Shown piece after piece: positions 8,818 to 17,573 of a stretch of 45,826 nucleotides of DNA (position 1 is its first letter; each line of letters starts with the position of its first letter). Origin of the DNA: Desulfurellales bacterium (GTDB lineage: Bacteria > Campylobacterota_A > Desulfurellia > Desulfurellales > Hippeaceae); NCBI GenBank assembly GCA_027045065.1, contig JALUBE010000162.1, forward strand, positions 1 through 45,826, written 5' to 3'. Position numbers and translations under genes: made by a program. Under the pieces are notes generated by a model that worked only from the letters and a program-made list of their open reading frames with translations, was not told the DNA's origin and ran no database searches.

Positions 8818-9528
8818 CTAACCTCCAAAATAAGCTTGCTTTATTATGTTATCGTCTTGGAAATCTTTCGCTTTTCCCGATGCCACAATTTTTCCATTCT
8901 TCAAAAAATACACCCTATCCGCTATTTTTATGGTCTTATTAACATTTTGCTCAACTATCAGTACCGTGAGCCTATTCTTTTTCATAAACGATATTATGTT
9001 GAACAGGTCTTTAACCAATTTCGGCGAAAGCCCTGCAGACGGTTCGTCCAAAATCACAAGTTTTGGCTCCCTCATCAAGCTTTGGGCAATGGATAGCATC
9101 TGTTGCTCCCCGCCTGACAAAAAACCCGCTTTAAGCACCATTTTTTCTTCCAAATTGGTAAAGTGCTCAAAAATCCCCTCAAGCTTCTGTTTAAAACCTT
9201 TTCCCCCTTCAACTTTTAAATTCTTATAAAATGCGACCCTAAGATTGTCAAGGACAGTTAGGTTTTTAAAGATCGTTCTTGTATCTGGTAGATACGAAAT
9301 TCCAAGATTTGCAATTTCATGGGTTTTTAAATTAGTTATATCTCTGTCTTCAAACACAACCCTGCCGTGCTTTTTTAAAACACCCATAACGGCATTGAGT
9401 ATCGTTGTTTTACCCGCACCGTTAGAGCCAACTATTGCAACTATCTCTCCTTTTCCCACTTCTATATTAACATCTTTAACGGCTAAAGCCCTACCATAAT
9501 AAACCGTCAAATTCTCTACCTTTAGCAT
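8818..9528 (-). CDS. livF: Branched-chain amino acid-type ABC transporter ATP-binding protein LivF
   Basis: 236 aa; GSNGAGKTTILNAVMG, LSGGEQQMLSIAQSLM, LDEPSAGLSP. Confidence 0.9.
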   Translation of the reverse strand: MLKVENLTVYYGRALAVKDVNIEVGKGEIVAIVGSNGAGKTTILNAVMGVLKKHGRVVFEDRDITNLKTHEIANLGISYLPDTRTIFKNLTVLDNLRVAFYKNLKVEGGKGFKQKLEGIFEHFTNLEEKMVLKAGFLSGGEQQMLSIAQSLMREPKLVILDEPSAGLSPKLVKDLFNIISFMKKNRLTVLIVEQNVNKTIKIADRVYFLKNGKIVASGKAKDFQDDNIIKQAYFGG

Positions 9529-10287
9529 CTACTCACCCATATATGCCTTAATAACCCGATAATCGTTCATGACTTCACTGGGCAGACCTTCTGCAATCTT
9601 TTTACCACTATCCATGACAACTATGGAATGCGAACAGTTTGTTACAAACTCCATATCGTGCTCTATTAAAAGTATCGATATGCCTCGTTCCCAAATCCTG
9701 AAGATACTCTTGAGCAAGAGCTCTGTTTCATCCTCATTTAATCCCGCAGCGGGCTCATCCAATAAAAGCAGCTCAGGTTCAGAAACCAAAGCTCTTGCAA
9801 TCTCCACAAGTCTTTTTATACCAAATGGTATCTGATTGGGATACTTATACAGATAATCCTCTATTTTTAAAAATCTACAAACCCTTTCAACCTTCTCAAG
9901 AACATCTCTTTCATGACTTTTGTTAAGCCCAAGAATGATGGATACAGGGTTTGACTTAATTTTGCTGTGCAAACCCAAAGCAATGTTTTCTTTAACCGTA
10001 AGAGCATCAATGAGCTGTATGTTCTGGAACGTCCTTGAAATTCCCAAGTTTATAAGTTTGTAAGGTTTATATAAGAAAAGATTCTTACCTTTAAAAATAA
10101 TCTCTCCGCTATCGGCTTTATAAAGCCCTGTTACGATGTTAAACAACGTTGTCTTACCAGCGCCATTTGGACCTACAAGTGCTTTTATCTGTCTTTCTCT
10201 TACAGAAAAACTAACGCCATCAACAGCCTTAACACCGCCAAAGTGTTTCGTTATGTTTTTTATCTTTAAAATATCGCCCTTTTCCAT
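9529..10287 (-). CDS. livG: Branched-chain amino acid-type ABC transporter ATP-binding protein LivG
   Basis: 252 aa; KHFGGVKAVDGVSF, GPNGAGKTTLFNIVTG, GISRTFQNIQL, LDEPAAGLN. Confidence 0.92.
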   Translation of the reverse strand: MEKGDILKIKNITKHFGGVKAVDGVSFSVRERQIKALVGPNGAGKTTLFNIVTGLYKADSGEIIFKGKNLFLYKPYKLINLGISRTFQNIQLIDALTVKENIALGLHSKIKSNPVSIILGLNKSHERDVLEKVERVCRFLKIEDYLYKYPNQIPFGIKRLVEIARALVSEPELLLLDEPAAGLNEDETELLLKSIFRIWERGISILLIEHDMEFVTNCSHSIVVMDSGKKIAEGLPSEVMNDYRVIKAYMGE

Positions 10288-11192
10288 TTTATAAATCCAC
10301 CCAAGCCTTTAGGCATAAACATGGCTGCAATTACTAACAGCAATCCATTAACAATTGGCCAGTAATCCTGTAAAAATGTCATGATATTCGGAAGCGAAGC
10401 CAAAACAACCGTTATAATCAAAGACCCAAAGATACTATCTATGCCACCAACAAAGGCCATGACGATGTAATCTATTGATTTTAAAAGATCAAACGAAGAA
10501 GGAGAAATAAAGCCCAAATAAAATGCATACAAACCACCGGCAAAAGCAGCATAGAAGGCACTCAAAGAAAAGATCACTACTTTATACAGATGAACATTCA
10601 CGCCAAAGGACAATGCCGCTAATTCCTTTTCATGTATGGCTTTTAGTGCCCTTCCAAAATGGGAATTAACAATCCTGAAGCTAATAAAGGCGAAAAAAAA
10701 CACCACAATCCAGACAAAAAAGAAAAACTTCTTTTCACTATCAAACACAAAACTACCAACGCTTAACATAGGCATTCCTGTCAGTCCCTGATGGCCGCCT
10801 GTTAAATCCACCAAATTATTTGCAAATATGTAGATTATCTCACCTATGGCGAGTGTGGCCATAGCTAAGTAGTGGCCTTTTAGTTTTAGCGTTGGATAAC
10901 CGATAATAAGGGCAAAAACGGACGTTAACAGCGATGCTATTAAAATTGATAGCCACGGATTAATGTTGAATCTTATAGCTAAAATCGAAGAAATATAAGC
11001 ACCCAAACCAACAAAACCTGCATGACCCAAAGAAACCTGACCTGCATAACCCAAAAGTAGGTTTAAACCCATCACAACAATAACAGCCAATGCGGCAATG
11101 GAAACCATATTGAGAATAAAGGGGTTTTTTATTATAAAGCCTGAAAGGAGAAAGAGAGCGATCAATACGTAAGTGGCTGTGTTTTCTTTCAT
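10266..11192 (-). CDS. livM: Branched-chain amino acid-type ABC transporter permease LivM
   Basis: 308 aa; GLNLLLGYAGQVSLGHAGFVGLGAY, DLTGGHQGLTG. Confidence 0.92.
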   Translation of the reverse strand: MKENTATYVLIALFLLSGFIIKNPFILNMVSIAALAVIVVMGLNLLLGYAGQVSLGHAGFVGLGAYISSILAIRFNINPWLSILIASLLTSVFALIIGYPTLKLKGHYLAMATLAIGEIIYIFANNLVDLTGGHQGLTGMPMLSVGSFVFDSEKKFFFFVWIVVFFFAFISFRIVNSHFGRALKAIHEKELAALSFGVNVHLYKVVIFSLSAFYAAFAGGLYAFYLGFISPSSFDLLKSIDYIVMAFVGGIDSIFGSLIITVVLASLPNIMTFLQDYWPIVNGLLLVIAAMFMPKGLGGFIKWKRAIF

Positions 11193-12065
11193 TTAAACCC
11201 TTTCAACATCTTTTGAACCAAAAATACCCGAAGGCTTAATAAACAAAACAAGAATCATAATGAAAAAAGTAACGGCATCTTTGTAAGACGAAGATATGTA
11301 ACCCGCAGATAAAGACTCAGATATTCCAATAATCAATCCACCTACAATCGCACCAACATTATTTCCAAAACCTCCCACAACACTTGCAGAAAAACCCTTC
11401 AAACCCATTATTAAACCAATGTTGTATTTAGCAAAACTTATTGGAGCTATAATTGAACCACCAACTGCCCCTAAAAATCCACTTAAGAAAAATGAAACGG
11501 ATTTCACCATTTCAACGTCTATACCAAAAATACTACACGCCAAAGGGTTTTGGGAGGCCGCAAGCATAACTTTTCCAAAATTTGTCAAGTTTAGAACATA
11601 GAAAAGTAAACCAGCAAGGATCAGAGCACCAACCAACACAACCAAATACTGGGATGAAAAAGTTAAACCAAAAATCGTTACACTCTCAAATGGTAAAAAC
11701 TGACCAACAGAATGGGCATTTTTGCCAAAAATCAGCATGGCAGTACCTCTTATAACCATCGCAAGACCTATGGTGAGAATTATCAAAGATAATTCTGTGG
11801 GATTTTTCGTATTTTTAATAAAAACAAAGTGAATAATATAACCTAAAAGACCAACGATTAGTGAGACAAGAAAAAGTGACGCGACTAAAGGAACATGAAT
11901 ACTCATGAAATAAAACTGCAACATTCCACCTAACATAACAAATTCGCCTTGAGCAAAGTTGACAATGCGAGTAGTAGAATAGATAAGATTAAAGCCCAAC
12001 GCTATTAGTGCGTATATTAAACCTGTTATGACACCATTTATTGTGTATTGAATAAACGCTTCTAT
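11193..12065 (-). CDS. livH: Branched-chain amino acid-type ABC transporter permease LivH; probable AUA start codon at 12065
   Basis: ORF track starts at an internal TTG (11999), but the same frame upstream reads [42 protein letters not shown], the conserved LivH N-terminus. No ATG/GTG/TTG lies between the in-frame TAA (12066-12068) and 11999. GGGAGG sits 7 nt upstream of ATA. Confidence 0.88.
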
Positions 12066-12607
12066 TTATTTGCCTCCCATTTCTCAGCTTCTTCCTTAAA
12101 GAGAGACGCCGTTAGCTCATCTATGTTACAAAAATGCACCTCTTTTACGTTTTTTGCACCCTTCAAAAACTCAATCGTTGTTGTGAATATGATATTAGCA
12201 GCCCTTTCTTTTGGAAAACCAAAGATACCAGAGCTTATAGCCGGCAAAGACACGCTTTTTATTCCCTTTTCCTCGGCCAACTTTAATGCACTCAAAACAG
12301 CACTCTTAAGTTTGTTGTCCTCATTCCCTTCGCCCCAAACAGGGCCAACAGCGTGTATCACGTATTTAGCCTTTAGTCTTCCAGCGCCAGTAATGGCTGC
12401 CGACCCAGTAGGCACATAGCCAATCTTGTCACTCTCCTCCTGTATCTCATAGCCGCCCTTCCTAACAATAGCGCCAGCCACGCCACCACCGTGTTTTAGA
12501 TGGGAATTTGCCGCATTTACAATAGCCTCAGTATCCTCCTCTGTTATATCACCCTGAATGACTTTAACAACTTTATCCCCAACCTTCAGTTCCTTTAAAA
12601 CTTTCAT
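12062..12607 (-). CDS. Macrodomain protein (ADP-ribose/O-acetyl-ADP-ribose processing, YmdB-like)
   Basis: 181 aa; [57 protein letters not shown]. Confidence 0.93.
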
Positions 12608-14665: not shown

Positions 14666-15684
14666 ATAGCATAAACCTTTGCGGGTAACATTTCTTTATT
14701 CAAAAGCAATTTCCTCTTAAAGCTACCCCTACTCTGCACAGCTTTAATTCGACCAATTTTACAAAAATCTTCACCAAAAAAGGCGCTCTTTTTTGTTGTA
14801 AAACAGAACTCAAAGCCCAAATCCTTGGCTATTTCAAGTGAATCTTCACAATACTCACCCCACGGCCAGGATAAAAAAGCCGTTACAACACCCAATTTTT
14901 TTCCTATTGCATCCTTTGAACCCTTCAAATCCTCAAAAACCCTATCCTTGAATTCCTCTACACTCTCAAAATGGCCTTTATTACCCAAAGCATTAGCCTT
15001 TTTAACCGTCTCTTCCTCATCTTTGCATTCCAAATACATCTCCCTAAATTTATCTAAAAAATCACCATCTGGGTAAAATCTCCTTGTAGAAAGAGAACTT
15101 TTCATTTCAAATATGGGATAGCCTTCTAATGGTTTCTTACCCAAAGCATATTCATAGCTCCAATGGGCATCAGAAGGTCTTTTCCATACACCTATAACCC
15201 TATCGCTTGAGAAAACCTTGACATGGCTACCCGAATGAGAGCCAATGACAAATACACCACTTTTTCCCATGATCCTCAGTTCATCCCAGCTTAAAAACTC
15301 ACTAAAATCACCGTTTAAAGAATCATATAGAGCCGTTTCCTTCCTTTTTGGTAAAAACAGGTTATCTTTACCGTCTTTGAGTGTCTTTTCCGGGCTTCTA
15401 TCCGTAATTTTAGATGTAATCACAAAAATCAATGCCTTTAACTTTAGCTCTTCTAAAATTGGGTATGCATACACATAGTTATCCAAAAAACCGTCATCAA
15501 AGGTTAAAAGCACAGAAGGCCTTTTAAGATCAACCTCTCCTTTTAAGTCAAATAGAACCTCTGGATCTACAATGTCAAAGTGTTCCTTTAAAAAAGACAA
15601 CTGCCACCTAAACGTATCGACATCTACATCATAACCTTTGAACGGCAGTATCCTATGATAGTAAAGGGCAATTAGTGGCTTCAA
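14653..15684 (-). CDS. Polysaccharide deacetylase family protein (NodB-like/CE4)
   Basis: 343 aa; YYHRILPF, SVLLTFDDGFLDNYVYAYPIL, SHSGSHV, SWPWGEY. Confidence 0.88.
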   Translation of the reverse strand: MKPLIALYYHRILPFKGYDVDVDTFRWQLSFLKEHFDIVDPEVLFDLKGEVDLKRPSVLLTFDDGFLDNYVYAYPILEELKLKALIFVITSKITDRSPEKTLKDGKDNLFLPKRKETALYDSLNGDFSEFLSWDELRIMGKSGVFVIGSHSGSHVKVFSSDRVIGVWKRPSDAHWSYEYALGKKPLEGYPIFEMKSSLSTRRFYPDGDFLDKFREMYLECKDEEETVKKANALGNKGHFESVEEFKDRVFEDLKGSKDAIGKKLGVVTAFLSWPWGEYCEDSLEIAKDLGFEFCFTTKKSAFFGEDFCKIGRIKAVQSRGSFKRKLLLNKEMLPAKVYAIWHR

Positions 15685-17573
15685 TACTCTATTCTTGCAG
15701 CCGTTAATCTATCAACTTCCAATATTCCCTCTATAAAGCGATAGAAGAAGCTTGCTGGCAAACCAATGACAGAAACTATATAATCGCCGTCCTTTCCAAA
15801 TCCCACAAGTCTACCTTTAACGTCGCCCGAAGACCAAACAAGCTTAAGTTTATCACCATTCATTTTAAACATCTTTATGTTGTATCCCTGATAGTGTTGC
15901 TTGTTGATCGTTATATTGTGTGACAGGTAGTTTCTCATGCCCAAAACTTCATAGCCATCTTTCGTCTTTATTACCTCTATACTCTTTGGAATAAATACTG
16001 AGTATTTCAATCTATACTCTGGCGTATAGCCAGCTTGTCTAACGCTTACATTTATGGGCTCAGGGTAACGCTCTATAGCACGCTCTCCACCTCCAAAGAT
16101 ATACGGTGCCTTATACGTTATCTTACCCTCGATCTCGTTGTAAACTTCAAGCTCCCTCGAGCTGTTCACAAAAACTATATCGTTACCCACTTTATAGAGG
16201 TTGTAAAAGCTACTCACATCAACGGGCAGGTTTAGTTTTGTGGTGGCAAACGTGTTCAAATCAAGTTTGTATATCGGACCGTAAAACGGGCTTTTTATAC
16301 TTGCTTTCTGTGCAATGAGTATGGGCTTTTCAGAGAACCTATCAAAGAACCTAATATGATAGGGTAGATCGTCCTTGATTATGTGGAACTTGCCTTTATC
16401 TATGTAACCCAAGGCTGAGGACAAATTGCCGTATCTATCAAAATTGCTTATGGCAACGAGATACTTACCACTAACCTTTGCCGCATCGATGTTTATTATG
16501 TTGTAGCCGTACTTGAAGCTGAACAACTTATCGAAAGAATCTATATCAAACCTGTAAGCCGTAACTTTGGATCCTTGGGCAACGAGTATAACATTTCCAT
16601 CTTTATCGTCAACTTTACCCATAAACATGGCGGTTGTGCCGTAACCAATGTCTTTATAAAGAACAACTTTATAAGAAGAAGACGACATCTGCAGGCGTGT
16701 GTATGGGCTATACAAACCGAATTTATTGAGGATTGACTCCCAAAAGGTCAGCTTAGGTTGTAATCTCAAGTTGGAAGCCACCAAATTATTGGGTGGAATA
16801 CTCTCTACATTGATCTGGTTCAAAACCATGCGCGTCTTGTTGTCTATTCCTATAGAACCCCTTTCAATTACAGAACCTGAATAACCATTGTATAGTTTGA
16901 ATTTCAGCTTTTCATGTTTAACTGTGGAAACCAATAGTACCAAATCGGCATCTACTACATTGGCAAATTTCTTGATGGCATCCCTTTCGTATAGCGTGTT
17001 TATCCTGTTCTTAACCAAAGCAATCTGCAGTGTATCCGGGCTGATGACAAAGAAACGACCCGTACTATTGAGTTTATCCCTAATCTGAGAATAGATGTAT
17101 GGATTCCTCGTTATTACCGCTATCCTGTAAGAAGGCTTGCCAGCAACCCATTGATCTCCCGTCTGTGGCTTTCCACCATATATTTCTTTTGTGCCGCTTG
17201 GTATTATACCCAAACCCAAAAAGTACTTTCTCTCCCTTTCTATACCCTGAGTGATAGTTGCAACAGACTTATGATCGTAAACCTTGTTAATCGTCGCAAA
17301 GCATATCCCTTCCTTTAATTCCACAGGTTTATTTGAATTCAAAGGCACGAAACTACCTTCATTTCTGTAGACGTAAACAAAGTAATTCTTGAATAAACCA
17401 TCCTCATAACCCTTATCTAAGACAAGTTTCCTTCCCTCTACCTTTAAAATTCTACCCTTAATGGGTTTGAGTTTAGGCGCAATTTGAGACACCAAATCAT
17501 CAAACACGGTACCGTAAGCCATATTTGAAATCAAAACAAACAGAACTAAAAAGGTATACACAAATTTCTTCAT
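15681..17573 (-). CDS. Uncharacterised secreted/periplasmic protein, probable C-terminal beta-rich domain
   Basis: 630 aa; signal peptide (MKKFVYTFLVLFVLISNMAYG), KGRILKVEGRKLVLDKGYEDGLFKNYFVYVYR resembling FlgT-C-like domains, then a TolB_N/CsgG-like segment and a beta-rich region. Function unknown. Confidence 0.6.
   Translation of the reverse strand: MKKFVYTFLVLFVLISNMAYGTVFDDLVSQIAPKLKPIKGRILKVEGRKLVLDKGYEDGLFKNYFVYVYRNEGSFVPLNSNKPVELKEGICFATINKVYDHKSVATITQGIERERKYFLGLGIIPSGTKEIYGGKPQTGDQWVAGKPSYRIAVITRNPYIYSQIRDKLNSTGRFFVISPDTLQIALVKNRINTLYERDAIKKFANVVDADLVLLVSTVKHEKLKFKLYNGYSGSVIERGSIGIDNKTRMVLNQINVESIPPNNLVASNLRLQPKLTFWESILNKFGLYSPYTRLQMSSSSYKVVLYKDIGYGTTAMFMGKVDDKDGNVILVAQGSKVTAYRFDIDSFDKLFSFKYGYNIINIDAAKVSGKYLVAISNFDRYGNLSSALGYIDKGKFHIIKDDLPYHIRFFDRFSEKPILIAQKASIKSPFYGPIYKLDLNTFATTKLNLPVDVSSFYNLYKVGNDIVFVNSSRELEVYNEIEGKITYKAPYIFGGGERAIERYPEPINVSVRQAGYTPEYRLKYSVFIPKSIEVIKTKDGYEVLGMRNYLSHNITINKQHYQGYNIKMFKMNGDKLKLVWSSGDVKGRLVGFGKDGDYIVSVIGLPASFFYRFIEGILEVDRLTAARIEY

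Follow-up and report, generated by a model that had tools for sequence, protein, structure and literature searches.

The livH gene of this Desulfurellales bacterium, which encodes a branched-chain amino-acid permease, opens with AUA, and none of the 14 livH orthologues found in its family, the sulfur-reducing Hippeaceae (Hippea and related genera), has a canonical start codon at this position. The most probable explanation, to which we assign a probability of about 0.75, is that AUA is a weak start that has been kept in the family, that it is coupled to translation of an upstream macrodomain gene, and that it is probably sensitive to IF3 and limits the amount of LivH.

The livH start site

The window, that is, the whole stretch of 45,826 nucleotides analysed, is contig C162 of a 1.53 Mb draft genome in 171 contigs. 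The features that define the livH start are as follows.

11193..12065, minus strand: livH, 290 codons, branched-chain amino-acid ABC transporter permease (Pfam PF02653, 120.5 bits)
12063..12065, minus strand: AUA start codon of livH (direct reading; orthologous base reads ATA in 13/14 and ATT in 1/14 family orthologues)
12066..12068, minus strand: in-frame TAA closing the livH frame directly upstream of AUA (direct reading; same in G005 and G002)
12062..12064, minus strand: TAG stop of the macrodomain gene, overlapping the livH start as ATAG (direct reading)
12073..12078, minus strand: Shine-Dalgarno (SD) sequence GGGAGG of livH (direct reading; 7 nt before AUA)
11997..11999, minus strand: TTG picked by the ORF caller, rejected as livH start (codon 23; lies within the first hydrophobic segment and lacks conservation)

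The preliminary description had placed the TAA, the ATA, the ATAG overlap, GGGAGG at 7 nt and the TTG at 11999, and on re-reading these positions are exact to the base. On the minus strand, the macrodomain gene ends with ...GGGAGGCAAATAAATAG, and the spacer between GGGAGG and the livH AUA comprises the seven nucleotides 12072-12066. Codons 1-22 of livH contain no ATG, GTG, TTG or CTG, the first canonical codon being the TTG at codon 23. The N-terminal peptide read from AUA is homologous to the first segment of LivH proteins, and the BPD_transp_2 match of Pfam (PF02653) extends over residues 8-274. Judged from these sequence features and from the conservation described below, the true start of livH is the AUA at 12065-12063 and not the TTG at 11999.

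Conservation in the Hippeaceae

A search of 60 relatives with the 290-residue LivH yielded 13 further orthologues, all of them in the family of the window. Together with the window, the 14 orthologues cover five genera and share 56-95% protein identity. Aligning the orthologous junction, a check proposed in the preliminary description, gave ATA at the same base in 13 of the 14 and ATT in G013, and livH measures exactly 290 codons from AUA or AUU in every one. Several orthologues have a stop codon directly upstream of AUA, and the start is preceded at about 5-9 nt by a GGAGG-like sequence. The orthologues differ widely at synonymous sites (pS about 0.7); since codons 2-22 are nevertheless as constrained as those that follow (pN/pS 0.27, against 0.26 in codons 23-60), this head is translated.

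These data bear on two of the alternatives. The window comes from a fragmented draft genome, and the preliminary description had allowed for a point mutation or a sequencing error. That ATA arose through faulty sequencing or assembly, or through recent mutation of a single strain, has a negligible probability: the same start position is non-canonical in 13 other genomes across the five genera, two of them assembled as single contigs, and any change from ATG to ATA would predate the family. Another candidate is a downstream canonical codon, the TTG at 11999 or its like, giving a shorter LivH; this start was reported by an ORF caller limited to ATG, GTG and TTG. We regard it as very improbable. 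The first canonical codon differs among orthologues, falling at codon 3, 16, 20, 23, 35, 43 or 44; in 13 of the 14 it lies at codons 16-44, whereas homology and constraint begin at codon 1-2. Initiation there would remove the conserved first segment, as the preliminary description had pointed out for the TTG, and the constraint on codons 2-22 argues that this segment belongs to the protein. One genome counts against the AUA reading: livH of G002 has a GTG at codon 3, although its spacing from the SD sequence is poor (13 nt).

The identity of the start triplet carries less weight than its position. Isoleucine codons 9 and 17 inside livH are also ATA in 12 of the 14 orthologues, and ATA is the commonest isoleucine codon of livH, so that sameness of the triplet alone is weak evidence of selection on start strength. 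The argument for a kept weak start rests on the absence of AUG and not on triplet identity. More distant homologues serve as a control for this absence. Among 80 named LivH homologues with 38-45% identity, 79 have ATG, GTG or TTG in the head, while the sequence of the last is truncated where its contig ends; the nearest ATG lies most often exactly at livH codon 1 (18 homologues) or one codon before it (17 homologues). The lack of a canonical start throughout the family (14/14), set against 79/80 ordinary homologues, is far beyond chance.

The junction with the macrodomain gene

The gene directly upstream of livH is:

12062..12607, minus strand: macrodomain gene (Pfam PF01661, 142.1 bits; synteny)

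The order macrodomain gene-livH holds in all 14 family genomes. The macrodomain stop overlaps the livH start in 12 of them, as ATAG in ten and as ATAA in G009 and G012, which represent two genera. G010 and G013, both of one genus, have no overlap, their macrodomain stops lying 12 and 7 nt upstream of the livH start. As in ordinary ATGA coupling, stop and start share bases and the SD sequence lies inside the upstream gene; unlike it, the tetramer is ATAG or ATAA and the start is AUA. The earlier description of livH as a coupled start whose ATG had become ATA thus holds for the overlap in most genomes, but the change would be older than the family, and the overlap involves UAA in two genera and is missing from one.

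The junction raises two further explanations. In most genomes the two genes share a few bases, and isoleucine is retained at livH codon 1, as might be expected if livH had no start of its own and LivH were produced, through frameshifting or readthrough of the stop, fused to the macrodomain protein. Such a fusion is highly unlikely: the relative frame is not conserved (macrodomain stop at +1 relative to the livH start in 12 genomes, at -7 in G013 and at -12, in frame, in G010), inspection of the aligned junction revealed no common slippery sequence, and its consensus fold contains no structure. A stronger competitor, although still rather unlikely, is that AUA is a harmless relic held in place by the overlap with the macrodomain stop (A-UAG), low output being tolerated and not selected. 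In the ten genomes with ATAG, the single substitution that yields ATG would also convert UAG to UGG and so destroy the macrodomain stop, and evolution could not easily leave AUA; this counts against selection. However, in G009 and G012 a single A-to-G change in ATAA would give ATGA, that is, an AUG start with a UGA stop retained, and G010 and G013 start at AUA and AUU, respectively, although they are free of the overlap. Because the overlap is gone in one genus and ATGA is one change away in two others, the overlap cannot be the whole reason for the persistence of the AUA start. That these four genomes from three genera (G009, G012, G010 and G013) keep AUA or AUU, easy or free as the change would be, favours probable selection for a weak start over retention by the overlap, with the reservation that the independent lineages are few.

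An RNA structure or known regulatory RNA at the junction was also considered and rejected; besides the empty consensus fold of the aligned orthologues, there is no Rfam match anywhere in the window.

infC and Shine-Dalgarno strength

IF3 discriminates against AUA start codons, and the AUU start of E. coli infC, the gene for IF3, is autoregulated. The infC loci examined (L259-L264, L266, L268, L269 and L271-L274) lie outside the window, and infC was not found in the draft genome of the window itself. In the Hippeaceae the gene opens with AGGAGGTGATGCT-AUA-AGAGGCGATTTT or close variants, with AUA in all ten family members in which infC was found and an SD sequence stronger than in 98-99% of ordinary genes. 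In the sister-family genomes G016-G018, infC reads GGGGGTGTTTT-AUA and its SD sequence is stronger than in 95%. Inside infC, a canonical codon first occurs at codon 22-54 in the family and at codon 7 in G018. Upstream of the infC SD sequence, three of the genomes contain a TTG or GTG in frame; these codons are not conserved. The statement in the preliminary description that the known infC case uses AUU is therefore correct for E. coli, but the infC of the Hippeaceae uses AUA.

The SD sequence of livH is less exceptional. That of the window has a computed anti-SD pairing energy of -10.2 kcal/mol; of 419 G003 genes that start at AUG, 72% pair more weakly. It stands at 7 nt in most orthologues, and 33-80% of background genes have weaker ones, compared with 95-99% for infC. 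On this evidence livH and infC share the unusual AUA as their apparent start, and livH combines it with an ordinary SD sequence and, in addition, a stop/start overlap.

Extent of non-canonical initiation in the genome

Conserved starts were scanned by comparing G003 (complete, minus 79.5 kb, within which infC probably lies) with 1.04 Mb of G008. The comparison gave 880 non-overlapping conserved ORF pairs, and in 168 of these the first ATG, GTG or TTG is preceded by six or more codons in both genomes; genes whose AUA precedes a canonical codon by less than about six codons would escape the scan. A loose filter for a conserved coding head retained eleven of the 168. Three of these are convincing by inspection, namely prfB, livH and a yraN-like gene. 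In the other eight the head is short or matches poorly, or the frame resembles a shadow ORF or one that overlaps an RNA. The prfB gene (identified from its sequence), the known +1 frameshift gene, served as an unplanned positive control. G003 contains three tRNAs with CAU anticodons, read by eye as one initiator, one elongator methionine and one isoleucine-type tRNA.

Genome-wide use of AUA or a special initiator tRNA was rejected on these grounds, only livH, prfB and the yraN-like gene having emerged from the 880 pairs and a single initiator-type tRNA having been recognised in G003. Relaxed initiation across the genome thus appears unlikely. An attempt to list start sites solely by the strength of their SD sequence was discarded, as it picked internal codons.

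The two other genes are of interest in themselves. In prfB (near 514822 of G003:C1, and its G008 counterpart), the in-frame-stop layout of programmed frameshifting is apparently kept in the family. The yraN-like gene (near 349879 of G003:C1, minus strand, and its G008 counterpart) overlaps the end of the gene for ribosomal protein L19. Its head is conserved as coding sequence and lacks ATG, GTG and TTG in both genomes; no obvious AUA or AUU start was seen for it in G003.

Proposed control of LivH synthesis

In the explanation we prefer, a kept weak start, ribosomes finishing the macrodomain gene at the overlapping UAG would re-initiate on AUA, helped by GGGAGG 7 nt upstream. The ordinary initiator tRNA would be used, at a rate reduced relative to AUG. 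A low output of LivH tied to translation of the macrodomain gene would most likely be favourable, and the weak start would have been kept across the Hippeaceae for this reason. Because IF3 discriminates against AUA and its own gene uses AUA, IF3 may tune the rate of initiation at livH, the output of which would then probably follow the ratio of IF3 to ribosomes. The preliminary description had offered low-level, IF3-sensitive translation as one of its two possibilities; conservation and the AUA of the family infC argue for the weak start, and low expression and sensitivity to IF3 would follow from it. A more doubtful, though possible, extension is that infC and livH form a small IF3-controlled set in the Hippeaceae, in which the amount of permease is set by the IF3-to-ribosome ratio. 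If so, amino-acid uptake would be linked directly to translational capacity.

The genes downstream of livH complete the order livHMGF:

10266..11192, minus strand: livM, ordinary ATG start (Pfam PF02653, 150.1 bits)
9529..10287, minus strand: livG, transporter ATPase, ATG start (Pfam PF00005 and PF12399)
8818..9528, minus strand: livF, transporter ATPase, ATG start (Pfam PF00005)

As the genes for LivM, LivG and LivF have AUG starts, one may speculate that LivH is the limiting subunit of the transporter.

Comparison with known near-cognate starts

Natural AUA starts have rarely been documented; the examples found are three S. aureus genes, infC, ccpN and citZ. The starts of infC and ccpN at AUA were mapped by Ribo-Ret (PMC13009471). 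In poor medium, output from the AUA or AUU starts was about 10% of that from AUG for ccpN, citZ and cvfC1, and a ccpN reporter reached up to 30% of AUG in rich medium (PMC13009471). S. aureus and B. subtilis share the conserved ccpN start, whose reporter output is about 10-30% of AUG (PMC13009471). Like livH, ccpN (AUA) and cvfC1 (AUU) combine a conserved non-canonical start with a function unrelated to translation (PMC13009471). They differ in that their SD motifs are extended and that, for ccpN, an effect of growth medium was measured, whereas livH has an SD sequence of 5-6 bases and a stop/start overlap.

In E. coli, infC and pcnB have AUU starts (cited in PMC1780047). The pcnB gene resembles livH, as proposed here, in that a near-cognate start limits the amount of one protein, and differs in its AUU codon, its function and its unrelated gene. 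The closer likeness is to infC (AUU in E. coli, AUA in S. aureus and in the Hippeaceae themselves), which also has a near-cognate start with an SD sequence, conserved in the family. Unlike infC, livH encodes a transporter permease, so that no autoregulation loop is possible, and it has an ordinary SD sequence and overlaps an upstream stop.

A search of the open-licence literature returned no report of a conserved AUA start in a transporter gene. Conserved near-cognate starts are already known, and a conserved AUA in a transporter gene adds a new case. Its presence throughout a family provides another instance in nature for asking whether selection favours weak starts, and the occurrence of AUA in both infC and livH of one family offers a ready pair for testing IF3 control beyond the translation machinery. 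In practical terms, gene callers limited to ATG, GTG and TTG will truncate or miss livH in the Hippeaceae.

Other features of the window

An NAD kinase gene follows livF. At 15681-17573 on the minus strand, the window encodes a 630-residue protein that is predicted to be secreted or membrane-anchored and has no Pfam match at E 0.001; its gene forms the upstream end of the run of glycosyltransferase, macrodomain and liv genes.
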